Positions 54,530-64,000 of a stretch of DNA of 64,000 nucleotides are shown here, piece by piece. This stretch comes from Lishizhenia tianjinensis (GTDB lineage Bacteria; Bacteroidota; Bacteroidia; Flavobacteriales_D; Crocinitomicaceae). The stretch lies in the NCBI GenBank assembly GCA_945902115.1, contig CAMDLY010000002.1, positions 1 through 64,000 of the forward strand. The letters run 5' to 3'. How positions within the stretch are numbered: the first letter of the stretch is position 1; every line of letters begins with the position of its first letter. The position numbers and the translations under genes are program-made. The notes under the pieces are model-generated. The model saw only the letters and a program-made list of their open reading frames with translations, was not told where the DNA came from and searched no databases.

Positions 54530-55093
54530 ATGAAAACCTCTGAAATCATAACGGTAGTTACAGGATTACCAAGGTCAGGCACTTCTTTAATGATGCAGAT
54601 TTTAAATAAATCCAACTTGGAAATATTATCTGACGGAGTGCGAGAGAGAGATATTAATAATCCAGAAGGATACTTCGAACTAGAGGCCGTTAAAGGAATA
54701 GTTAAGGACAATGCCTTTCTGAATATGGCAGTTGGAAAAGTGGTGAAAATTGTTGTTCCACTCCCCGTATTTTTAGATAAATCACATTCCTACAGAGTTG
54801 TTTTTTTGCGCCGGGATATTGAAGAAATACTTCGCTCTCAGGAGAAAATGCTAAATAAAGATCAAACCTCTGAGCGTGAAAAATTTAGAACCATTTATGA
54901 AATGCATTTAAAAAAAACATATTCCTTTTTTGACCTTCACAAGATTCCGTATATTAATATTAGTTACAAGGAGTTGATTTCAGATAGAGAAAATGAGTTA
55001 AAAAAAATTGTAGATTTCTTAACGATAAGTACCCCATTGGAAGAACTAATGACCGCTATAAATAGTGATTTATATAGAAATAAAGTTAATTAA
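54530..55093 (+). CDS. Small cytosolic sulfotransferase-family protein
   Basis: 187 residues. The PAPS-binding P-loop is seen as TGLPRSGTSLMMQIL (residues 11-25), the 3'-phosphate motif as VVFLRRDIEEILRSQ, and the C-terminus as ISYKELI. This is a compact member; most are 250-350. PAPS-dependent transfer of sulfate to an unknown acceptor is predicted. It is the first gene of the module with the microprotein and AP-TPR phosphodiesterase: the next start codon (55093) shares its A with the stop. The C-terminal domains of the two phosphodiesterases look like decayed copies of this protein. Confidence 0.82.
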   Translation: MKTSEIITVVTGLPRSGTSLMMQILNKSNLEILSDGVRERDINNPEGYFELEAVKGIVKDNAFLNMAVGKVVKIVVPLPVFLDKSHSYRVVFLRRDIEEILRSQEKMLNKDQTSEREKFRTIYEMHLKKTYSFFDLHKIPYINISYKELISDRENELKKIVDFLTISTPLEELMTAINSDLYRNKVN

Positions 55094-55263
55094 TGATGGC
55101 TGATCAAAAAATAACTTTTAGCAATCAAAAAGGTGAGGAATATAATGTTCCTCCAGGTGGTTCGCTAGGATTACTTGCTCTCGGTTCCGTGGGTGTTAGG
55201 GCTTGGAAGAAAGCAAAAAAAGAATGGGAAGACAATCAAAAAAGTGAAATCAAAAAAAAATAA
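55093..55263 (+). CDS. SLGLLALG-type microprotein, first copy
   Basis: 56 residues, too short to be found by usual annotation. The sequence has a central VPPGGSLGLLALGSVGVRAW segment followed by a Lys/Glu-rich tail. It shares GSLGLLALG-x2-G-x-R-x-W with the 47-residue ORF at 58790. A second ATG is 3 nt downstream. The gene is between the sulfotransferase (1-nt overlap) and the phosphodiesterase (20-nt overlap). The hydrophobic stretch is short (about 12 residues), so it may be a peripheral membrane or protein-binding helix. Conservation of sequence, position and overlap supports a real gene. Confidence 0.75.
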   Translation: MMADQKITFSNQKGEEYNVPPGGSLGLLALGSVGVRAWKKAKKEWEDNQKSEIKKK

Positions 55264-57631
55264 AGTTCTCTTAGTTGGTTGGGATTCTGCCGACTGGAAA
55301 ATAATCGATAAGTTGATGGCAAACGGACTTATGCCAGCAATTAAGAGCATCGTTGATAATGGTGTGAGAGGTAAGTTAGCAACAATAGACCCCCCTCTAT
55401 CACCAATGCTATGGACATCCATGGCAACAGGTGTTAGGCCATTTGATCACGGAATTTTGGGTTTCGTTGAACCTGACGGCAAAGGAGGGGTCCGGCCTGT
55501 TTCGTCATATTCTAGAAAAGTTAAAGCCATCTGGAATATGCTTTCTATCGAAGGATATAAATCTAATGTAGTTGGTTGGTGGCCAAGCAATCCTGTAGAA
55601 AGTATTAACGGATGCATGGTGTCTAACCTATTTCATCAAGAAAAGGTTGGTAAAGATATTGTTGAAATCGATAAATGGAAAGTTCCTGATGGATCTGTTT
55701 ATCCCGAAAGAATTATTGAAAAACTAAAAGATCTACGAGTGCATCCTCATGAGATTACAGGGAATTTAATAATGCCATTTGTTCCACAAGCAGTAGCTCT
55801 GGATAAAAAACAAGACAAGCGATTGAATGTCATCGCAAAGCTTCTTGCGCATGCCACAACCGTTCATGCCACAGCAACAGAATTGATGATTACAGAACCG
55901 TGGGATTTTACTGCCGTTTATCACGATGCCATGGATCATTTCAGTCACGCTTTCATGAAATACCACCCGCCACAAATGAAGGGTATGGCGGACGAAGCCT
56001 ATGAGTTATTCAAGGATGTAGTTATCGGTGCATATGTTTATCACGATATGATGTTGGAGAGGTTGTTGAAACTCGTAGATGATGACACCACAGTGATGGT
56101 GATTTCAGACCATGGATTCCATTCAGATCACCTTCGCCCAACCCACGTCCCACAAGTACCTTCAGGACCCGCAATTGAACACGCTCCATATGGTATAATT
56201 GCTATCAAGGGTCCGGGAATTAAAAAAGGTGAAAGTATATATGGATCGAGTATATTGGATATCACGCCAACACTACTCTCGCTATTCGATCTACCAATCG
56301 GAAGAGACATGGTGGGAAAACCATTGGTGGATATTTATGAAAAAGAAAAAGAAATTAAATATATTGACTCTTGGGAAAGTATCGAAGAATCGGGGGGTAA
56401 AATAGTTATTCCCAAAGAACACGATACTGATTTAAACGATACTGCTCTCCAACAATTAATTGATTTGGGATATATCGAAGATTTAAATTCGCCACATCAA
56501 GAGGCTGAGGATTATTTAAAAGGGATTATAAATGAAAATAATTTCTATCTCGCTAAATCATATGCAACAGCTGCAAAATATGAGGAGGCATTAGAGATTT
56601 TATTGGAAATTGAAAATAAAGCGAAACCAGATTTCAGAATTTTAATCGAAATAATAAATTGTGCTGTAAAGACGAAACGATTCAAACTGGCAGAAGAATA
56701 TTTAAATTTTGTTAGGAAGAATAAACTCATCAATAACGCCTACATTGATGTTCTTGAGTCTAAGGTTCAGTTAGGTTTAAATAATCCAAAAATAGCCCAT
56801 AAATTGTTAAAGAGTGCCTTAAATGAAAATCCAGATGCCCTAGAGATATTGCTTGATATGGGGAGACTTCTGAACACTATGATGGATAGTGAAGGCGCAA
56901 TTCAAAGTTTTGAGCTCATCATAAAAAAAGATCCCGATAATCCATATGCGTATCATGGAATAGGAATGGCCTGTCTTCAAAAAGGTCAATATGAAGATGC
57001 GATTTCTTATTTTTTGGATGCCATTGATCGCTTGTATCATTATCCTTTAGCTCACTTCCACTTGGGAGAGGCTTTCGCATTGATGAAAATGTACGAACCT
57101 GCAATTAAATCGTTTGAAGTAGTTGAGACAATGACTCAAAATATTCCAAAAGTTTATCGTTGGTTGTTCGACCTGTATGAAATTATTGAAAACCAAGAAA
57201 AAACAGATCGATATAGAAAATTGGTCAATTATATCAGTAGAGGACAGCGAAAAATTATTACCGGATTAGCAACTGAAAAGCTTGAATTTTATATTAAAAA
57301 CCTTCGAGAAAAAGCTATAACTGTTGTAGGTTTTGATAAGCACCTTTATGATTTTTCCATCGACTTATCTCGTGAAAATTGGCTAGATGAACTCGATGCT
57401 GAATATGCTTTTGTTCCGTTAAACTATTTACCAAGCCTTAATGGTTTCCATTCTTATCAAATTTACTTTGTAGAAAGTAAAAAAGAAGACGCCATGAAGT
57501 ATGTGCATAAAATCAATAGATTAAAAGACGCAACAATTGATTTAGGCCTCTTGAATGAGCTAGAAAATCAAGTCATTGTAGCAAATTCATGGATTAGTCA
57601 ACAACCCAATATTGATTTAATTCGATGTTAA
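55244..57631 (+). CDS. Alkaline-phosphatase-superfamily phosphodiesterase with TPRs and degenerate sulfotransferase-like tail, first copy
   Basis: 795 residues from a GTG start. Type I phosphodiesterase domain (about 7-400): Asp14 in VGWDSADW, nucleophile Thr58 in DPPLSPMLWTS, and metal motifs YHDAMDHFSH and ISDHGFHSDH. TPR-like helices occupy about 430-660, with motifs YAYHGIGMACLQKGQYEDAI and HFHLGEAFALMKMYEPA. The last ~125 residues match the end of the second copy and, weakly, the stand-alone sulfotransferase, but the P-loop is gone. No signal peptide: cytosolic. GTG 55244 is chosen since it gives the same Asp14/Thr58 numbering and 20-nt overlap as the paralogue. Confidence 0.82.
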   Translation: MKSKKNKVLLVGWDSADWKIIDKLMANGLMPAIKSIVDNGVRGKLATIDPPLSPMLWTSMATGVRPFDHGILGFVEPDGKGGVRPVSSYSRKVKAIWNMLSIEGYKSNVVGWWPSNPVESINGCMVSNLFHQEKVGKDIVEIDKWKVPDGSVYPERIIEKLKDLRVHPHEITGNLIMPFVPQAVALDKKQDKRLNVIAKLLAHATTVHATATELMITEPWDFTAVYHDAMDHFSHAFMKYHPPQMKGMADEAYELFKDVVIGAYVYHDMMLERLLKLVDDDTTVMVISDHGFHSDHLRPTHVPQVPSGPAIEHAPYGIIAIKGPGIKKGESIYGSSILDITPTLLSLFDLPIGRDMVGKPLVDIYEKEKEIKYIDSWESIEESGGKIVIPKEHDTDLNDTALQQLIDLGYIEDLNSPHQEAEDYLKGIINENNFYLAKSYATAAKYEEALEILLEIENKAKPDFRILIEIINCAVKTKRFKLAEEYLNFVRKNKLINNAYIDVLESKVQLGLNNPKIAHKLLKSALNENPDALEILLDMGRLLNTMMDSEGAIQSFELIIKKDPDNPYAYHGIGMACLQKGQYEDAISYFLDAIDRLYHYPLAHFHLGEAFALMKMYEPAIKSFEVVETMTQNIPKVYRWLFDLYEIIENQEKTDRYRKLVNYISRGQRKIITGLATEKLEFYIKNLREKAITVVGFDKHLYDFSIDLSRENWLDELDAEYAFVPLNYLPSLNGFHSYQIYFVESKKEDAMKYVHKINRLKDATIDLGLLNELENQVIVANSWISQQPNIDLIRC

Positions 57632-57664
57632 TTTTTTTTAATAGACTATTCACACAATATTTAT

Positions 57665-57672
57665 TAATTTTG
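57665..57672 (+). promoter_or_regulatory. -7 box TAATTTTG for the first HYGW-domain T9SS gene
   Basis: Exact TAnnTTTG match 23 nt before ATG 57696. The gene is therefore probably transcribed on its own, ending at the terminator at 58565-58590. Confidence 0.5.
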
Positions 57673-57695
57673 TCCTAAACATTAAATTTTTATAA

Positions 57696-58538
57696 ATGAA
57701 AAAAACTCTACACAATCGAATTTCTAAGTATACTGCTGTTGCGGGAGCTGTAGTAACAGCGGCTGGTGCTCAAGCGCAAGTTGTCTACACTGATGTTAAT
57801 CCTGATTATTCTCATGATGCAACTCAGAATAATGGTTTTTCTGTCTATCCATTGGATTTAAACAATGACCAAACAGTTGACTTTGTAATTGCTTCCAAAG
57901 ATTCGCTATATGCTGCTGGTAATAAGTTGAGATATACATTAGCTGCCCCATATGGTGCAGGTAACGCAGTTGCTGGAGAGAATCCAGGTGGATATGATTA
58001 TGCATTAGCATTAGATATCAACTCAATGGTTGATTCAACATTAAACTGGATTGAGGCAACAAACACTATGGCTTACAATGTTGATAGTGCCAATCCATAC
58101 AATGAAAATTGGAACGGTGTAACTGATAAGTATTTAGGGTTGAAATTTGTTGTCGGTGGAAATACACATTATGGTTGGGCTCGTTTGGACTCTTACGCTA
58201 TTGGAGATTCTATTGTTGTTAAAGATTATGCGTTTGATGCAACGCCTAATACAGGAATTATGACAGGAGATATGGGTTCAGTATCTTTAACTGAAACTCA
58301 AGTTGAAAACCTTGTTAAATTTATTAATCAATCAAATAATTCAGTACAAGTTGTATTAAACGGAAACCTAACAAATGGAGTTGTTTCTGTAGTTTCTTCA
58401 ACTGGTCAAGTAGTTTCAGCTGAAGACATCACTGATAAAACTTTTTCAGTAGACATGAATAACCTTTCATCAGGAGTTTATATGGTGAATGTTTCTTTCA
58501 GCGAAGGTTCTACAACTAAGAAAATCATCGTTCATTAA
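57696..58538 (+). CDS. T9SS-exported HYGW-domain protein 1
   Basis: 280 residues. Signal region with a longer Ala/Val stretch (KYTAVAGAVVTAAGAQAQ), then VVYTDVNPDY, an EF-hand-like DLNNDQTVDF (Ca2+ pattern), a conserved DKYLGLKF...GGNTHYGWARL stretch, KDYAFDATPN and a type-A C-terminal sorting domain (VYMVNVSF... KKIIVH). The THYGW(A/V)RL pattern recalls proteins with PEP-CTERM-type anchors, here joined to T9SS sorting. Surface or secreted. Two paralogues follow at 61511 and 62428. Confidence 0.82.
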   Translation: MKKTLHNRISKYTAVAGAVVTAAGAQAQVVYTDVNPDYSHDATQNNGFSVYPLDLNNDQTVDFVIASKDSLYAAGNKLRYTLAAPYGAGNAVAGENPGGYDYALALDINSMVDSTLNWIEATNTMAYNVDSANPYNENWNGVTDKYLGLKFVVGGNTHYGWARLDSYAIGDSIVVKDYAFDATPNTGIMTGDMGSVSLTETQVENLVKFINQSNNSVQVVLNGNLTNGVVSVVSSTGQVVSAEDITDKTFSVDMNNLSSGVYMVNVSFSEGSTTKKIIVH

Positions 58539-58564
58539 TAAAAACGAAATTTCTACTAAAAATT

Positions 58565-58590
58565 AAAGCCGGCTCAATGTCGGCTTTTTT
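58565..58590 (+). terminator. Terminator after the first HYGW-domain gene
   Basis: 7-bp stem AAAGCCG / CGGCTTT followed by a T tract to 58590. It separates the first HYGW gene from the second microprotein-phosphodiesterase module. The remaining ~200 bp to 58790 hold two -7-like boxes (TATTTTTG at 58607, TAGATTTG at 58726) and no gene. Confidence 0.8.
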
Positions 58591-58789
58591 ATTTTTAAGG
58601 TTTTATTATTTTTGCTTAAGGCTTGTTAATGAATAATTTCGGTTTTTATTGGTACAACTCACACCTTGTAATCATATATCTGACAATTAATTGTTCAAAC
58701 GGATTTAACATAACAATGTAGGGAATAGATTTGGCACACAAGGCATTAATTAAAAGAATAGAACTAGATAAATAAAAATACTTCTTATC

Positions 58790-58933
58790 ATGTCAAAAGA
58801 ATATAAAATAACGGAACAAGGATCACTTGGCCTTTTGGCTCTCGGGCATATTGGCCTGAGAAAATGGAGAGAAGTGGTAGCAGAAGAAAAGAAAAAGCGC
58901 CAAGAAAAGAAAAATGACAAAAAAGAAAAATAA
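58790..58933 (+). CDS. SLGLLALG-type microprotein, second copy
   Basis: 47 residues: MSKEYKITEQ, then GSLGLLALGHIGLRKWREVV and a Lys/Glu-rich tail. It keeps the same core as the first copy (GSLGLLALG, one Gly, Arg, Trp) although the flanks differ, as expected for a conserved short protein rather than chance. The stop is 20 nt inside the following phosphodiesterase gene, exactly as in the first copy, so the two are probably translationally coupled. Confidence 0.75.
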   Translation: MSKEYKITEQGSLGLLALGHIGLRKWREVVAEEKKKRQEKKNDKKEK

Positions 58934-61472
58934 AATACTTGTCATAGGTTGGGATGCGGCTGATTGGAAGGTTATAAAACCTCTGATTGAGCAAGGTAAG
59001 ATGCCAACTCTTAAAAGGTTAATGGAACGCGGTGTACATGGCCGAATTCAGACCTTAGATCCTCCCTTGTCTCCTATGCTATGGACCAGTATTGCTACTG
59101 GATTTAGAGCTGATACACATGGGATTGGTGGTTTTGTTGAGCCGACGCCAAATGGAGAAGGACTTCGCCCAGTTACTACCACCTCACGAAAAGTAAAAGC
59201 AATTTGGAATATCTTGAACCAAGAGGGATGGAAAAGCAATGTGGTCACTTGGTGGCCAAGTAATCCTGCAGAGCCAATAAATGGAGTGATGGTTTCCAAT
59301 TTATATCAAGCTGCCAACAAAGCTCTTGGTGAAGATTGGGAAATGCCAACAGGGACAATTCATCCTGAGGAATTGAGTGAAACTATGAAAGAATTTCGTG
59401 TGCATCCTCACGAGATAAGTTTGAGTATGTCAATTCCTTTTATACCAAATTTGGCAGAAGATTTAGAACTTAGAAAAGATAAAAGAACCTTAAGCGTATT
59501 AAAAGTAATATCTCATGCCGCCACAGTGCATGCAGCATCTACCTTTCTAATGGAAGAGACCGAATGGGATTTCATGGCTGTTTACCACGATGCTATTGAT
59601 CATTTTTGTCATACAGCAATGAAATATTTTCCACCGAGAAGACCTGAGATTCCTGAAAATGACTACGAAAATTTCAAGCAAGTTGTTGAATCCGGGTATC
59701 TTTTTCATGACATGATGCTGGAACGAACCTTGTCTTTAATCGATGATAACACTACCGTTGTTTTACTCTCTGATCATGGCTTCTATTCCGATCACCAAAG
59801 GCCACTGCATATTCCTAGTGAACCTTCAGGGCCTGCTGTTGAACACAGTCCATATGGTATTTTTGTGATGGCAGGACCTGGAATCAAAAAAGGTTCGGAA
59901 ATTTCAGGCGCTAGTGTATTGGATGTGACTCCAACTTTACTGCATCATGCGGGACTTCCTGTTGGAAGTGATATGGAAGGAAAGGTATTGTATCAATGTT
60001 TTGAAAATCCTGCAGCTGCCAAGACCATTGATTCTTGGGAAAATGTGCCAGGCGAGACCGGTCAACATGATTCCTTACTGCGGGAAGATCCTTGGGCTGC
60101 TCAAGAGGCATTACAACAATTGGTAGATTTAGGTTACATCGAGGCTCTTGATGACGACAAATTAAAACAAGTTGAGAAATGTAAGCAAGAGAATGATTAC
60201 TACATAGCAAGAAATATGATTCACGGGGGGCGTTTAAAACCTGCCATTGAGATTTTAGAACGCATTTTTACCGAATCAAAAATTCTTCGTTATGGACAAC
60301 GTCTTGCATTTGCTTACTTGAGCAAAAAAATGTACATGAAATGTCAGGAGGTAGTAGACTTACTAAAAAAAATTGATGCAGAGAAAAGGGAGGGAAAAAA
60401 TAAAGACAAAAAAGATACTGATGATGCCTTCAATAATTTAGACTACGAAGAACCAATGTATTTAGAATACCTTGAAGGACTTCTAAACTTGGCCATGAAT
60501 AAACCAAGAAAAGCACTTCCTCTGCTAGAAAAGGTTCAAAAAAAGAACCCAAACAATGTCCAAGTCGCAACGAGTATAGCGCAAATACATCTATTGAGAA
60601 AAAACTTTAAGTTCGCTGAAAATCAATACATCACTGCCCTTGCTGTCGATGACAGGAGCACTTCAGCTCATTATGGACTGGGATTAACTTTTCTTCGTCA
60701 AAATAAGTTAAACGAAGCGGTTGATGAGTTTCTAATCGCCCTTGAACAAGATTTTTTCCAGGTTCAAATACATTATCACTTGGGGGAAGCATTAGCTAAA
60801 TTAGAACTTTGGGAAGATGCCGTAAATGCATTTAGAGTAGCCGTTAGAATCTCCCCTGGTATGACTAAAGCACATAAATGGTTGGTGGATATCTACCAGA
60901 ATAAATTGAATCTTGCCAATGAAGCTCAAGAAAGTATTGCATTCTTAGAAAGCAATATAAAAGGTGATATTATAGTATGTACAGGGCTAGATAACTGCAG
61001 TCACGAAGAGTTTATCGCAGTACTCGAGAAGGGGGGCGTTTCAGTTTTACGTGATCCCAAAGGATATAAAGAAGCAGAAAAAATCTTATTTGCAAATCTA
61101 TGGTTGGAAAAGGCAATAGGAAAGGTAATTTACATTCCATGTAGGCAGTTAAGTGACCTACCAACTAATTTCAATTATAAGGTTATTTATTTGGAGCATG
61201 AATTTGAGGAAATATTACCCTCACGCACTGCCGATTTAAAAAAGAAACTATCAAAAGAAACAATAGCTATTGGTGTTCTTAATACGATCGAAAAAGAAAA
61301 ATTCATCATTGATTTGTGGATACAATCTCAACCTAGCCAGCAGGTGCTCATTGTAAATTGGAGAGAATTTCTTGAGTCAACTGACGAATTGATAAGTTTA
61401 ATATCTCAATATCTGAATGTTAGCTTAGATGAAAAAGCAATAAAAAAACAAGTAAAGTTAAAGGTTGATTAA
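58914..61472 (+). CDS. Alkaline-phosphatase-superfamily phosphodiesterase with TPRs and degenerate sulfotransferase-like tail, second copy
   Basis: 852 residues. Phosphodiesterase domain with Asp14 (IGWDAADW), Thr58 (DPPLSPMLWTS), YHDAIDHFCH and LSDHGFYSDH; Lys-rich linker about 485-505; TPR helices about 440-680 (AHYGLGLTFLRQNKLNEAV, HYHLGEALAKLELWEDAV). The C-terminal ~165 residues follow the stand-alone sulfotransferase (CTGLDNCSHEEFIAVLEKGG; then KVIYLEHEFEEILPS; then VNWREFLESTDELISLISQYL) but RSGTS is replaced by DNCSH, so PAPS binding is probably lost. This tail is about 37 residues longer than in the first copy. Cytosolic. Confidence 0.82.
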   Translation: MTKKKNKILVIGWDAADWKVIKPLIEQGKMPTLKRLMERGVHGRIQTLDPPLSPMLWTSIATGFRADTHGIGGFVEPTPNGEGLRPVTTTSRKVKAIWNILNQEGWKSNVVTWWPSNPAEPINGVMVSNLYQAANKALGEDWEMPTGTIHPEELSETMKEFRVHPHEISLSMSIPFIPNLAEDLELRKDKRTLSVLKVISHAATVHAASTFLMEETEWDFMAVYHDAIDHFCHTAMKYFPPRRPEIPENDYENFKQVVESGYLFHDMMLERTLSLIDDNTTVVLLSDHGFYSDHQRPLHIPSEPSGPAVEHSPYGIFVMAGPGIKKGSEISGASVLDVTPTLLHHAGLPVGSDMEGKVLYQCFENPAAAKTIDSWENVPGETGQHDSLLREDPWAAQEALQQLVDLGYIEALDDDKLKQVEKCKQENDYYIARNMIHGGRLKPAIEILERIFTESKILRYGQRLAFAYLSKKMYMKCQEVVDLLKKIDAEKREGKNKDKKDTDDAFNNLDYEEPMYLEYLEGLLNLAMNKPRKALPLLEKVQKKNPNNVQVATSIAQIHLLRKNFKFAENQYITALAVDDRSTSAHYGLGLTFLRQNKLNEAVDEFLIALEQDFFQVQIHYHLGEALAKLELWEDAVNAFRVAVRISPGMTKAHKWLVDIYQNKLNLANEAQESIAFLESNIKGDIIVCTGLDNCSHEEFIAVLEKGGVSVLRDPKGYKEAEKILFANLWLEKAIGKVIYIPCRQLSDLPTNFNYKVIYLEHEFEEILPSRTADLKKKLSKETIAIGVLNTIEKEKFIIDLWIQSQPSQQVLIVNWREFLESTDELISLISQYLNVSLDEKAIKKQVKLKVD

Positions 61473-61481
61473 AATAAATAC

Positions 61482-61489
61482 TAAATTTG
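61482..61489 (+). promoter_or_regulatory. -7 box TAAATTTG for the second HYGW-domain gene
   Basis: Exact TAnnTTTG match 21 nt before ATG 61511, directly after the phosphodiesterase stop codon. The nearest TTG is 14 nt upstream, less than ideal. Confidence 0.4.
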
Positions 61490-61510
61490 TTCACAAAATA
61501 AAAAGTGCTT

Positions 61511-62365
61511 ATGAAAAAAATTACTTCTTTAAACAAATCAAAACTAACGAGTTACACTGCATTTGCAAGTGCTATTGTAGCCGGAAGTGCTGCTAATGCC
61601 CAGGTTACCTACGTAGACATCAATCCTGATGCAGTTGCAGATTCATTAAACCCGTATGCGGTAGACTTCAATAACGATGCTGCTCCCGATATGGCTTTTG
61701 GTGTTCAACATTTATCTGGATCTTTCTCCAGTCAAGGGAATGTTCTCACATACGAAGGAGCTTTAGCTTATGCTGTTTTCCCTAACGGACTAGCAGTTTT
61801 AGACCCTGCAGATTCTACCACAGCAGTTTTAGATTGTGGAGTAGCTGTATCTCAAGCATCACTTTTTGGATCAAGTTCTGGAGCCATATTAGGATACGCA
61901 GCCTTAATTCAGCCAATTAACTATCCATTTGCCCAAGGTGCTTGGCTAGGTGCGAATGATAAGTATTTAGGTTACAAATTTGATTTAGGTGCAAATACCC
62001 ATTACGGATGGGTAAGACTTTCTGTTGCTGCCAACGGTGAAACGATCACTATCAAAGAATATGCATTTAACGCTACACCAGGTGCTGCAATAAATACGTG
62101 TCAACAAACTTCTGGAATCGAAAGTGTTTCAGTAGAGGATAAAGTAACTATCAAAACAACGTTAAACGATGCTACAATCAATGTAACTCCAGATTTAGTT
62201 GGTGGTTCAATATCTATGATAAGCATGGCTGGACAAGTGGTGAAAACAATCGTTATTTCTGATGTAAACACTACAATTTCTTTCGAAGGAATTGACTCAG
62301 GTATTTATTCAGTTGTTGCAAATTTTGAAGCTGGTTCAGTGAACAAAAGAGTTTATATAAAATAA
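61511..62365 (+). CDS. T9SS-exported HYGW-domain protein 2
   Basis: 284 residues. N-terminus SYTAFASAIVAGSAANAQ, then VTYVDINPD, DFNNDAAPDM (Ca2+-type), NDKYLGYKF, ANTHYGWVRLSV, KEYAFNATPG, and a C-terminal sorting domain (SGIYSVVANFEAGSVNKRVYIK). Same architecture as 57696-58538. ATG 61511 is used; a GTG two codons upstream would add residues before the signal. Followed by a terminator hairpin and the third copy. Confidence 0.82.
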   Translation: MKKITSLNKSKLTSYTAFASAIVAGSAANAQVTYVDINPDAVADSLNPYAVDFNNDAAPDMAFGVQHLSGSFSSQGNVLTYEGALAYAVFPNGLAVLDPADSTTAVLDCGVAVSQASLFGSSSGAILGYAALIQPINYPFAQGAWLGANDKYLGYKFDLGANTHYGWVRLSVAANGETITIKEYAFNATPGAAINTCQQTSGIESVSVEDKVTIKTTLNDATINVTPDLVGGSISMISMAGQVVKTIVISDVNTTISFEGIDSGIYSVVANFEAGSVNKRVYIK

Positions 62366-62387
62366 CTATAATTATTTTATATATTTG

Positions 62388-62415
62388 AGGAGTGGGAAAC
62401 CACTCCTTTTTTTTT
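62388..62415 (+). terminator. Strong terminator, 12 nt before the next start codon
   Basis: Perfect 8-bp stem AGGAGTGG / CCACTCCT with GAAA loop and nine T residues (62407-62415). ATG of the third HYGW gene is at 62428. A -7 box TATATTTG (62380-62387) ends directly before the hairpin. Confidence 0.9.
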
Positions 62416-62427
62416 AAATTTACTTTT

Positions 62428-63324
62428 ATGAGCAATACAAACATTCGTCTAAAAAAATACTTGGCAGCCAGTGGAACATTACTCGTCGGAAATGTAGTAT
62501 TCGGCCAAAATCTACAATATACTGACGTCAATCCTGATGTAATTTTAGATAAAAACGCTGGACCTTTTGAAATGGATTTCAACAATGACCTATCTGTGGA
62601 CATAACTTTTGAAGTGGCTTCTTTCGACGGAAGTGGATCGTCGACTTATATGGGTATTCCATTCACATTTGTCTATAACGGTTCGCAAGCCGGAGTTGTT
62701 CCGGGTGCTAATGGTGGAGTCCAAGGACAAGTTATCGGAAGTAGCAGTACATTCGGAGTTAGTGTGTTGAATGAAGGTGATGCCATATCTGCTGCAAATA
62801 ATTTTAGCTCCCAAAGCGCAGCCATAGGGTTGCAAGGTGTAGTATCAATACCTGCTTTCAATATTGATTATGCCATAAATCAAGGTGAGTTTTTAGGAGC
62901 TTCACAAAAATTTATGGGTATGAAATTTCAGGCAGCTGGCAACATGCATTATGGATGGGTTCGTCTGAGTGTTGATACATTAGATCCTGCGGGTCTTAAA
63001 TTGATTATTCATGATTATGCTTACAACGGCACTGCCAACGAACAAATTATTGCTGGAGACCCTATTGGCTCTGTTATTGCTCAAGCTGCACTTCAGGATA
63101 AAGTATCATTTCTGATTACCACGGATTTAGTCACGTTAAATGTTACACCTGATCTTATTGGAGGGGAATTACAAATCGTGAATATTGATGGTAAATCAAC
63201 TTACACCTTACCTATTGATGATATCGGAACCAAAGTCAGGTTAGAGGACTATTCTACAGGTATTTACTTTATAGAAGCTCGATTCGGAGAAGGCACTCTA
63301 TCTAGAAAAATTTATGTAAAATAA
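62428..63324 (+). CDS. T9SS-exported HYGW-domain protein 3
   Basis: 298 residues: hydrophobic N-terminus YLAASGTLLVGNVVFGQ, LQYTDVNPDV, DFNNDLSVDI, QKFMGMKF, NMHYGWVRLSV, HDYAYNG and a C-terminal sorting domain ending RKIYVK. It is the most diverged of the three (LKLIIHD insertion, Met for Thr before HYGW). ATG 62428 is used; a GTG at 62392 lies inside the terminator hairpin. Function unknown. Confidence 0.82.
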   Translation: MSNTNIRLKKYLAASGTLLVGNVVFGQNLQYTDVNPDVILDKNAGPFEMDFNNDLSVDITFEVASFDGSGSSTYMGIPFTFVYNGSQAGVVPGANGGVQGQVIGSSSTFGVSVLNEGDAISAANNFSSQSAAIGLQGVVSIPAFNIDYAINQGEFLGASQKFMGMKFQAAGNMHYGWVRLSVDTLDPAGLKLIIHDYAYNGTANEQIIAGDPIGSVIAQAALQDKVSFLITTDLVTLNVTPDLIGGELQIVNIDGKSTYTLPIDDIGTKVRLEDYSTGIYFIEARFGEGTLSRKIYVK

Positions 63325-63365: not shown

Positions 63366-64000
63366 ATGCGAAAACTACTTACACTCACACTACTTTTTAT
63401 TTTTATTTACTTCGTTCAAATATCCGCTCAAATCAAAATCAATGAGGGGTGCAACAAAAACTATCAATCTCTTTTCGATGAAGATGGAGACTCCCCCGAT
63501 TGGATAGAACTATATAACGCTGGCTCAACTAATATTCTTCTTTCTGACTATTTCTTAAGTGACAAAAATAGCAACCCCTTTTCCTGGCAATTACCTGATA
63601 TTTCACTACCACCTGGAGGATTTCAAAAAGTTTTTTGCAGTGGTAAGGATCGTTTAGGAAGTGACCCTTTCAACTTTTTAACAAGCCAACAATCTTTTAC
63701 ACCCGTTTTAGGGTGGAATCAACATAATTTCTCGACACCATTTGTTTGGGATGGAGTTTCAAATATTATTGTTAACGTCTGCTCTTACAATTCTACTCAA
63801 TACACTATAAATAGTTCGTTTTATCAAACTCCAACAAACTTCGCATCCTCATTAGTGGCAATTAACGATGGAAGCGACGCTTCATGCGGAGCCACACTTG
63901 GACAAACATATAACCAACGTCCAAATGTTAAATTCAATGGAATACAAATTGGCAATGGCCAAGTTCAAAATAACGACACCGGTTATCCCGCACCATATGG
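63366..64000 (+). CDS. Lamin-tail-domain secreted protein, partial (runs off the window)
   Basis: The first 211 codons of a larger protein: signal peptide (ending YFVQISAQ), then a lamin-tail domain (IKINEGCNKN, DWIELYNAGSTNILLSDYFLSDK, ISLPPGGFQKVF), followed by a beta-sandwich segment with FVWDGVSNIIVNVC and, at the edge, TGYPAPYG, a motif I associate with a domain in large T9SS proteins. The product may also carry a CotH or chitobiase domain downstream; the window ends too soon to tell. Confidence 0.7.
   Translation, partial: MRKLLTLTLLFIFIYFVQISAQIKINEGCNKNYQSLFDEDGDSPDWIELYNAGSTNILLSDYFLSDKNSNPFSWQLPDISLPPGGFQKVFCSGKDRLGSDPFNFLTSQQSFTPVLGWNQHNFSTPFVWDGVSNIIVNVCSYNSTQYTINSSFYQTPTNFASSLVAINDGSDASCGATLGQTYNQRPNVKFNGIQIGNGQVQNNDTGYPAPY

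Follow-up and report, generated by a model that had tools for sequence, protein, structure and literature searches.

Two diverged copies of a cross-phylum gene module that joins an AP-TPR-sulfotransferase enzyme, HYGW proteins and a short helix, with a possible role in surface modification

Introduction

Why should genes for a microprotein, an alkaline phosphatase superfamily protein with TPRs (AP) and an exported HYGW protein stand together twice over, next to a gene for a sulfotransferase (ST)? The question is raised by a locus in the 64,000-nt window (i.e., the whole stretch of DNA analyzed here), for which a sequence-only reading proposed the tandem duplication of a whole functional unit whose cytosolic enzymes may act on the exported proteins. 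A search of the open-access literature by title or abstract opening yielded no description of an AP-TPR-ST/microprotein/HYGW module, which occurs in several phyla and has apparently not yet been described.

Results

Layout and age of the duplicated locus

Open reading frames and Pfam/TIGR profile matches recovered all the genes named in that reading, in the order claimed:

54530..55093, + strand: standalone PAPS-type sulfotransferase (ST), 187 aa; Pfam PF13469 E 2.8e-10, PF00685 E 7.6e-6
55096..55263 (alternative start 55093), + strand: microprotein 1 (micro1), 55 aa, MADQKITFSNQKGEEYNVPPGGSLGLLALGSVGVRAWKKAKKEWEDNQKSEIKKK; microprotein HMM E 1.3e-21 (scored on its own genome, with micro1 and micro2 both among the 25 sequences of this HMM)
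55244..57631, + strand: AP/TPR protein 1 (AP1), 795 aa, GTG start; PF01663 (Phosphodiest) E 7.4e-27 plus TPRs
57696..58538, + strand: HYGW protein 1 (HYGW1), 280 aa; PF18962 E 1.2e-8, TIGR04183 38 bits
58790..58933, + strand: microprotein 2 (micro2), 47 aa, MSKEYKITEQGSLGLLALGHIGLRKWREVVAEEKKKRQEKKNDKKEK; microprotein HMM E 1.2e-18
58914..61472, + strand: AP/TPR protein 2 (AP2), 852 aa; PF01663 E 6.9e-25 plus TPRs
61511..62365, + strand: HYGW protein 2 (HYGW2), 284 aa, weak T9SS tail; 34% identity to HYGW3, 32% to HYGW1
62428..63324, + strand: HYGW protein 3 (HYGW3), 298 aa, T9SS tail; TIGR04183 25.7 bits

Unit 1 in the window reads ST-micro1-AP1-HYGW1 and unit 2 reads micro2-AP2-HYGW2-HYGW3. 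The repeated order that had been proposed holds for microprotein-AP-HYGW but not for the separate ST, which is found in the first unit only. Each microprotein/AP pair shares exactly 20 bp, with the GTG start of AP1 at 55244 inferred from its alignment with AP2 and from this equal overlap. The idea that a whole unit was duplicated is backed by another locus, L085, which has the identical gene order. Because L085 shares this order, and because its AP1 and AP2 are closer to their counterparts in the window (57-58% identical) than the AP paralogues are to each other (36-40%), the duplication is ancient, and a recent tandem duplication is ruled out. The standalone STs of the two loci are 65% identical, and the mutual identity of HYGW1-3 is 29-34%.

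The enzyme is usually an AP-TPR-sulfotransferase fusion

Two peptide patterns retrieved at least 507 AP relatives, and the 80 AP loci analyzed here are those with the highest scores, which makes them a non-random sample. In 73 of these 80 best-scoring ORFs, AP is an AP-TPR-sulfotransferase fusion, which upholds the earlier view of the sulfotransferase as part of the set; the standalone ST of the window is a split-off version of the domain that is normally fused. An ST gene of its own near an AP devoid of the P-loop was found in the window, in L085 and in L021. The standalone ST has an intact P-loop (TGLPRSGTS) and RRD..E...S, and it matches the ST-domain HMM at E 2.7e-57. Both elements of PAPS binding were found in it (the GLPRSGTS P-loop and the 3'-phosphate motif FLRRDIEEILRSQ), PF13469 (Sulfotransfer_3) scores over its cut-off, and the genome also carries an APS kinase gene. 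AP1 and AP2 each end in a degenerate ST domain, which in AP1 is also truncated. The PAPS P-loop is gone from both (GLDNCSHE in AP2, GLATEKLE in AP1), and AP1 has also lost the R/S residues. AP2 matches ST in BLAST (31% identity, E 1e-9); AP1 does not, yet it aligns with AP2 across the ST-like region.

The structural model of AP2 (pLDDT 89) comprises an NPP/PafA fold (residues ~1-370), a TPR superhelix (~416-681) and the degenerate ST part (~685-852), the last barely covered in the VIA list of structural matches. The best matches were PafA (Z 28) and ENPP1, ENPP3 and Xac NPP (Z 27-28), and those of the AP-domain fold include sulfatases and phosphodiesterases. Foldseek placed TPR-transferases of the OGT and SPINDLY type among the top matches of the AP2 model, behind designed TPR proteins, and a PDB sequence search with AP returned only phosphonoacetate hydrolase chains at E 1e-5. 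Seven positions (D14, S53, D229, H233, D287, H288, and H311) are invariant in 66 of 66 aligned AP proteins, with metal-binding roles that we presume to be those of NPPs. AP1 and AP2 are thus classed, from their sequences, as NPP-like members of the alkaline phosphatase superfamily and predicted phosphodiesterases. Inspection of AP1 by eye revealed no signal peptide, and the AP-TPR-ST polypeptide is probably cytosolic.

HYGW proteins and their T9SS tails

HYGW1 consists of an Ala-rich signal region, a beta-rich core and a T9SS type A C-terminal domain (CTD). In its AlphaFold model (pLDDT 85), the segment 199-280 resembles both DUF3244 proteins (Z 10-11) and the CTDs of T9SS cargo (Z 8-10); the VIA list of structural matches is filled by this domain, not by the core (about 29-195). 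HYGW1 passes both T9SS tail models (PF18962 Por_Secre_tail and TIGR04183), HYGW3 passes TIGR04183 (25.7 vs a cut-off of 23 bits) and falls below PF18962 (19.6 vs 27 bits), and HYGW2 lies below both cut-offs (TIGR04183, 18.8 vs 23 bits). A T9SS translocon gene, SprA, is present in the same genome (SprA_N PF14349, E 3.6e-153). All three HYGW matches at E<=1e-5 in this 2.5-Mb genome, for which 8 of 11 first-look candidates were scored, lie at this locus. The module can do without the T9SS tail: HYGW of other phyla ends in a PEP-CTERM-like tail.

AP, microprotein and HYGW are linked across genomes

Among the 80 AP loci (the best of at least 507 relatives), a microprotein is present at 48 and a HYGW gene lies within 5 kb at 50. 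One or the other occurs at 70 of the 80, and at 46 of the 50 loci with at least 1.5 kb of flank on both sides, so AP/TPR genes do not sit at random loci devoid of such neighbors. When non-overlapping ORFs of 90 aa or longer were clustered, only the AP and HYGW clusters extended beyond 4 of the 80 loci.

Genome-wide positions point the same way. In the 49 AP genomes, 62 of 150 listed HYGW matches (of 151 in all, one of the nine in G431 being left out) lie within 10 kb of AP, vs about 1.3 expected by area. Since the HYGW and microprotein models were seeded from AP-adjacent genes, some of the hits are seeds; removing the 8 HYGW seeds leaves 54 of 142. For standalone microproteins there are 33 strong matches (short ORF, E<1e-6), of which 18 were used to build the model. 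Every one is encoded on the same strand as AP and within 2 kb upstream of it; this AP is a full-length match in 32 cases and, at G415:C373, an AP-ST remnant with an internal deletion. AP linkage of microprotein and PEP-CTERM matches was judged by eye. Taken with the neighbor counts, these positions rule out accidental linkage.

The distribution is patchy. The window's phylum was represented by 395 genomes. AP was found in at least 2 of them, a lower bound because two first-look candidates per genome were scored at E<=1e-60, and the microprotein in 3, including both AP genomes. Genomes G064 and G395 are not independent, since one gene is shared by L005 and L007, whose AP parts are 100% identical. 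No HYGW match reached the threshold in 12 of the 49 AP genomes, and none was seen near five Beggiatoaceae microprotein loci (L035, L045, L046, L054, and L077); two of the three genomes searched with such loci (G421 and G423) have no HYGW at threshold. Three Bacteroidota genomes hold 17-22 HYGW copies, mostly away from AP, and for about 7 kb around a lone microprotein in G243 there are no matches to AP, ST or HYGW. The viral contigs and plasmids searched contained no AP relatives, and a phage or plasmid origin was rejected on this ground.

The microprotein alternates with a PEP-CTERM-type tail

The microprotein motif, GSLGLLALGxxGLxAWRxKR, is kept across phyla with free flanks, and by its sequence the microprotein resembles a PEP-CTERM-type tail that has become detached. 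Charged residues (D/E/K/R) fall inside the 16-residue hydrophobic stretch in 18 of the 25 aligned microproteins, which casts doubt on a transmembrane helix. At 19 of the 27 non-Bacteroidota loci without a microprotein, HYGW itself carries a PEP-CTERM-type tail (judged by eye); at the other 8, some of which are short of flank, no match to the HYGW core lies within 5 kb. These counts make no use of an automatic "PEP-like" tail label, whose loose pattern wrongly marks some T9SS proteins. Strong exosortase matches (E<1e-20) occur in 16 of 20 genomes without the microprotein vs 1 of 29 with it (p 2e-8), 10 more of the latter having weaker matches. No exosortase (PF09721) match was found in the window's own genome. 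Furthermore, an HMM built from standalone microproteins only recovers 12 of 15 AP-linked vs 1 of 135 unlinked PEP-CTERM matches (Fisher p 3e-14; the 150 listed of 306 matches).

An AP tree was built from 66 sequences (AP1, AP2 and 64 of the 80 loci, which were picked for their length and spread). On this tree, microprotein presence requires 6 changes vs a shuffled mean of 19.8, and 18 sequences from loci without a microprotein form one group (SH-aLRT 89). The "tail" label on the tree denotes HYGW without a detected microprotein and includes the Bacteroidota loci L015, L024, and L069; L079, which has neither gene, falls outside the group.

The likeness between microprotein and tail is short and partly compositional. 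Of the tail models, only NF050011 (PFE-CTERM) matched the window's microproteins, at E 0.041 (14.5 of 24 bits) and E 0.64. That of L022 matched PF07589 below the cut-off (E 0.063, 13.8 of 20.7 bits), and those of L018 and L046 matched no PEP-CTERM model; none of these five reached a curated PEP-CTERM cut-off. With these scores and no exosortase match, the reading of the microprotein as an ordinary PEP-CTERM protein was rejected for the window's genome. Tail-type HYGW scored over the PF07589 cut-off in 4 of 6 cases tried (L030, L076, L059, and L067; not L040 or L060) and over the TIGR02595 cut-off in 5 of 8, so the majority of tail-type HYGW elsewhere, not all, belongs to the PEP-CTERM/exosortase type.

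Discussion

Our preferred reading, to which we give a probability of roughly 45%, is that a cross-phylum AP-TPR-ST/HYGW/short-helix module is present at the locus in two diverged copies, and that its cytosolic enzyme is docked for surface modification. The module itself is well supported, and the gene set probably modifies what the cell places on its surface; the docking, substrate and activity are what we infer. The direct basis is the conserved linkage, the fusion and fission of ST, and the alternation of microprotein and tail that matches exosortase presence, together with the intact AP catalytic positions, the intact standalone ST, and the APS-kinase and T9SS genes of the genome.

The module has three parts: (i) an enzyme with NPP-fold phosphodiesterase, TPR superhelix and PAPS-type sulfotransferase domains, mostly fused, with ST as a separate gene here; (ii) the beta-rich HYGW protein, which is secreted; and (iii) the short helix with the motif given above, as either a C-terminal tail of HYGW or a separate microprotein. 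The tail form belongs mostly to exosortase-bearing genomes, and the translationally coupled microprotein mostly to Bacteroidota, where HYGW has a T9SS tail. The helix may be inserted into the inner membrane or lie on it, its W-R-x-K-R end facing the cytosol, where the TPR superhelix could bind it and dock the cytosolic enzyme at the site of HYGW export. AP and ST would then hydrolyse or transfer phosphate and sulfate, with the HYGW precursor, the anchor of HYGW or a glycan exported along with it as candidate targets. Slightly more tentatively still, we propose that PEP-CTERM-type tails have a second job. The LGxxGLxAWRxKR subclass may serve as a docking helix for a surface-modifying cytosolic phosphodiesterase-TPR-sulfotransferase, and Bacteroidota without a strong exosortase may have kept or split the tail as a trans-acting microprotein while the partner takes the type IX route.

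The enzyme might have a surface glycan or lipid anchor, not a protein, as its target, i.e., AP-TPR-ST would be an envelope sulfation or phosphate-trimming enzyme co-expressed with HYGW as an abundant matrix protein. PEP-CTERM systems are reported to be tied to exopolysaccharide loci (PMC1569441), two tail-type HYGW are weak, sub-threshold matches (E 2e-6 and 4e-6) to PepA, a flocculation protein, and sulfatases and phosphodiesterases are among the AP-domain fold matches. A study of PepA reports that its overexpression lowers soluble polymers and raises bound ones (PMC9850573). However, no glycan biosynthesis family shows up among the ORF clusters that recur across the 80 loci, and we consider a glycan or lipid target in place of a protein unlikely.

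A little less likely again is a RaxST-like scheme, in which ST sulfates a conserved HYGW tyrosine in the cytosol before export and AP recycles PAP/PAPS or removes the mark. ST is intact, as a separate gene here or fused elsewhere, Xanthomonas RaxX/RaxST offers a reported precedent, and T9SS-type HYGW has Y12 in 28 of 28 sequences and Y31 (VVYTDxxPD, with acidic neighbors) in 27 of 28. Among 17 tail-type HYGW sequences, however, 6 have Y31 and 4 have Y12, so that family-wide sulfation of one conserved tyrosine is unsupported. The most widely kept tyrosine (YGW, 40 of 45) sits in a strand of the model, and the scheme leaves the microprotein and tail unexplained.

We regard as improbable that the microprotein is a mere leader or translational coupler for AP, with the HYGW neighbors as co-regulated passengers that have no biochemical link. 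The 20-bp overlaps, the very short ORF and the lone copy in G243 would suit such a role, but coupling needs no conserved amino-acid motif, and a similar motif is found on HYGW tails where the microprotein is absent. A toxin-antitoxin or phage-defense pair of a small protein and a larger enzyme, suggested by the small overlapping upstream gene and the patchy spread, is highly implausible given the lack of relatives in the viral contigs and plasmids searched and the frequent pairing of AP with a secreted HYGW protein.

The docked-enzyme reading joins envelope themes so far studied apart, namely PEP-CTERM/exosortase sorting, T9SS cargo and bacterial sulfation. It gives a testable function to an unexplained TPR-phosphodiesterase-sulfotransferase family and to HYGW surface proteins, and the free-standing tail protein provides a handle on the role of the basic end of PEP-CTERM-like tails beyond exosortase cleavage.

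Among known systems, PEP-CTERM/exosortase resembles the module in the tails of AP-adjacent HYGW in Planctomycetota, Methylococcaceae and others, and in the hydrophobic-then-basic order that the microprotein shares. It differs in that the microprotein is a separate protein with no PEP motif and sub-threshold scores, in a genome without an exosortase match. Moreover, the consulted portion of its description mentions no TPR-phosphodiesterase-sulfotransferase, and the TPR protein there, PrsT, is a lipoprotein (PMC1569441). HYGW1 and HYGW3 resemble T9SS type A cargo by their curated tail scores, the structural match of the HYGW1 CTD and the SprA gene, whereas the T9SS tail is one of two HYGW endings in the module. 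We know of no AP-TPR-ST component of T9SS. The AP domain agrees with the NPP/PafA branch in fold and in all seven expected metal/nucleophile positions. The usual NPP nucleophile is Thr, whereas that of AP is Ser, and the polypeptide that the AP domain shares with TPR and ST is probably cytosolic. As is reported for RaxST/RaxX, a sulfotransferase gene adjoins the gene of an exported protein, but the other partner genes differ and HYGW has no family-wide tyrosine in an acidic context. Finally, the TPR-transferases OGT and SPINDLY share a TPR superhelix next to a transferase domain, whereas in the module the place of a glycosyltransferase is taken by a predicted phosphodiesterase and a sulfotransferase.

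Organization and age of the gene unit

In the window, a sulfotransferase (ST) gene is followed by two units, each comprising a microprotein gene, a gene for an AP-superfamily phosphodiesterase/TPR protein (AP), and one or two genes for HYGW proteins, which are secreted, beta-rich surface proteins. In both units, the microprotein stop overlaps the AP start by 20 bp, and thus the repeated gene order with equal overlaps noted in the sequence-only reading was borne out.

Genes and signal regions of the module in the window
54530–55093, + strand: ST, Sulfotransfer_3 protein
55093/55096–55263, + strand: microprotein 1, upstream of AP1
55244–57631, + strand: AP1, GTG start, PF01663 phosphodiesterase with TPRs
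57696–58538, + strand: HYGW1, T9SS-tail cut-off passed
57696-57780, + strand: Ala-rich signal region of HYGW1
58790–58933, + strand: microprotein 2, upstream of AP2
58914–61472, + strand: AP2, PF01663 phosphodiesterase with TPRs
61511–62365, + strand: HYGW2, below the T9SS-tail cut-off
61511-61600, + strand: Ala-rich signal region of HYGW2
62428–63324, + strand: HYGW3, T9SS-tail cut-off passed
62428-62500, + strand: Ala-rich signal region of HYGW3

AP1 and AP2 are 38–40% identical. Another Bacteroidota genome (locus L085) has the order ST–micro–AP–HYGW–micro–AP–HYGW. Identity to the window orthologues is 58% for AP1, 57% for AP2, 65% for ST, 57% for HYGW1, and 47% for HYGW2, versus 36–40% between paralogous APs. 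Based on these alignments, we place the duplication of the unit before the split of the two lineages. The proposed tandem duplication of a whole unit thus stands, with its order matched in L085, while a recent origin does not fit such divergent paralogues.

Directly 3' of the module lies the gene for a 1003-aa secreted protein (63366-64000, on to about 66377 of the contig; L143), which by eye likely has a lamin-tail/CotH-like region and a T9SS-like tail. Its family was absent among the recurrent ORF clusters of the other loci (best-scoring 80 of at least 507 AP relatives).

Conservation of the AP neighborhood

The records that contain AP relatives are assigned by name to Bacteroidota, Planctomycetota, Verrucomicrobiota, Pseudomonadota, Cyanobacteriota, Acidobacteriota, Ignavibacteriota, Kryptoniota, and Nitrospirota; most are MAGs, and mis-binning is possible for some of them. 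We examined the best-scoring 80 of at least 507 relatives. Among these best 80 loci, the microprotein was present at 48, and at 50 a HYGW core was matched no more than 5 kb from the AP; both occurred at 28 and either at 70, which speaks against the accidental linkage that the sequence-only reading named as its refutation. Of the 50 loci in this set with flanks of at least 1.5 kb on each side, 46 had a microprotein or HYGW, the other four being L017, L026, L049, and L078. No ORF cluster other than AP and HYGW (ORFs of at least 90 aa) occurred in more than 4 of the best 80. Small phage-tail-collar genes, presumably of the microcystin-dependent-protein-like family, lie near AP in 4 of them (L008 and three others).

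All 33 strong standalone microprotein hits in the 49 AP genomes (18 being sequences of the microprotein model) have an AP on the same strand, no more than 2 kb downstream of them. The consensus of the microproteins is (I/V)PxEGSLGLLALGxxGLxAWRxKR. Thirty-two of the hits adjoin a full-length AP match, and the remaining one, the second microprotein of its genome, adjoins a short ORF in which an AP start (E 9e-17) is fused to an ST-domain end (E 1e-21):

L146 (G415:C373) 177-772, - strand: internally deleted AP-ST remnant, AP first residues running straight into the ST-domain end

A lone 77-aa microprotein (L089/L111, G243:C17) had no AP, ST, or HYGW match in the surrounding 15 kb. At L075 and L081, the microprotein lies ~3 kb upstream of AP with another AP-family ORF in between, one microprotein apparently being followed by two AP genes in a row; the second AP of L081 has lost its P-loop.

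Across the 49 AP genomes, 62 of the 150 HYGW matches listed lie within 10 kb of an AP (~1.3 expected by area), or 54 of 142 after removal of 8 model-seed sequences. HYGW was not found at threshold in 12 of the 49, nor was a match found near five Beggiatoaceae microprotein loci; three Bacteroidota AP genomes carry 17–22 HYGW copies, mostly unlinked to AP. The L043 genome (G431, Opitutales) has 12 AP-family matches at about nine places, some of them fragments, and nine HYGW hits, a lineage-specific expansion.

The module is rare in the window's phylum: among 395 genomes, which we take to be Bacteroidota since G064 carries the gene of Portibacter marinus L007, AP occurred at E≤1e-60 in 2 (two candidates scored per genome), the microprotein in 3 (a lone copy in addition to the two AP genomes), and HYGW-like matches in 21. 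All 3 HYGW matches of the window's own genome are at this locus. We consider it very probable (about 93%) that the module exists as a conserved unit.

The AP–TPR–ST enzyme

In 73 of the best-scoring 80 of at least 507 relatives, AP, TPRs, and an ST domain (P-loop G[LF]PR[ST]GTS) follow one another in a single ORF; the remaining 7 include the contig-cut L067. The C-termini of AP1 and AP2 are alignable to this domain, and the P-loop is lost in both; of the 3'-phosphate motif, R and S are lost in AP1 and S is retained in AP2. Since the relatives are mostly fused, these C-termini are degenerate, and the window's separate ST has both motifs intact, the alignments identify the latter as a split-off domain of the fusion. 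Likewise, L021 and L085 each encode an intact standalone ST close to an AP that lacks the P-loop, and in L019 AP is followed by a broken ST.

In the predicted AP2 structure (pLDDT 89), residues about 1–365 resemble PafA and enzymes of the ENPP/NPP type (Z 27–28). All 66 aligned AP sequences have D14, S53, D229, H233, D287, H288, and H311, and we take these residues, from knowledge of NPPs, to be metal ligands and nucleophile. By eye, no signal peptide was seen at the N-termini of AP1 and AP2, and therefore both are probably cytosolic. The genome encodes an APS kinase, so it can probably make PAPS.

Microprotein and PEP-CTERM-like tail

The microprotein model, built from standalone microproteins only, also matches the tails of AP-adjacent HYGW ORFs, such as PEPGSLALLALGAAGLCAWRKK (L030) and PEPGTLSLTLLGLGAGGVRAWRKRK (L029). 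In a control on the 150 listed of 306 PEP-CTERM matches from 13 genomes, it matched 12 of 15 AP-linked versus 1 of 135 other tails (p 3e-14). Of the HYGW proteins tried from the no-microprotein group, 4 of 6 passed PF07589 and 5 of 8 TIGR02595.

Among the best 80 of at least 507 relatives, the microprotein occurs at 38 of 43 Bacteroidota loci versus 10 of 37 elsewhere; of the 27 lacking it elsewhere, a HYGW core match was found in 19 and not found in 8. Strong exosortases were detected in 16 of 20 no-microprotein genomes versus 1 of 29 microprotein genomes, with weaker, often partial matches in 10 more of the latter. In the window's genome, no exosortase match was found, and SprA of the T9SS is present. 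On the AP tree, 18 no-microprotein rows, which span several phyla, fall into a single group (SH-aLRT 89, not starred), and microprotein state is strongly clustered (6 changes versus a shuffled mean of 19.8). Most simply, tail and microprotein would be one part, which one group carries on its secreted protein and the other encodes as a gene of its own; alternatively, two short helices may have converged. The L046 genome (G422, Candidatus Halobeggiatoa) has both forms, on contigs C304 and C41: one AP is of the micro type, and another, at a different place, adjoins four HYGW genes with tail-like hits.

HYGW proteins and their homologues have in common an unusual Ala-rich signal region (KLxxYSAxAxA...AQxVYTD), in which Tyr12 is found in 28 of 28 T9SS-type versus 4 of 17 tail-type members. 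It is tempting to regard Tyr31 of the T9SS-type proteins as a sulfation site, but just 6 of 17 tail-type proteins keep it. The HYGW proteins of L030 and L059 match the flocculation protein PepA weakly (E 2e-6 and 4e-6, below cut-off and partly via the common tail); PepA is reported to affect bound exopolysaccharide (PMC9850573), and the match hints at a matrix role.

Proposed mechanism and comparison with known systems

The positive-inside rule has been argued for PEP-CTERM tails (PMC1569441). By this rule, the WRxKR end of tail or microprotein would face the cytosol, probably the same side as the AP–TPR–ST protein. TPR superhelices bind peptides and can deliver substrates to attached transferases, e.g., OGT and SPINDLY. 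Given this precedent and a predicted cytosolic WRxKR end, we propose that tail or microprotein could dock the enzyme at the inner membrane, at the HYGW export site, where HYGW, its anchor, or a co-handled glycan may then be the target of sulfate transfer and phosphodiester hydrolysis. We infer docking, membrane insertion, and substrate alike, and we rate this mechanism at slightly under even odds. As 18 of 25 microproteins carry a charged residue within the hydrophobic stretch, peripheral membrane binding instead of simple insertion is possible.

In open-access titles and abstract starts, the module combination was not described among the matches listed, and the microproteins and HYGW cores tried had no Pfam or NCBIfam match above cut-off. 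Taken singly, the parts belong to known folds or are short motifs, but the whole module, with a free-standing PEP-CTERM-like tail as a member gene, appears to be undescribed so far. The best Foldseek matches of the AP2 model include OGT and SPINDLY.
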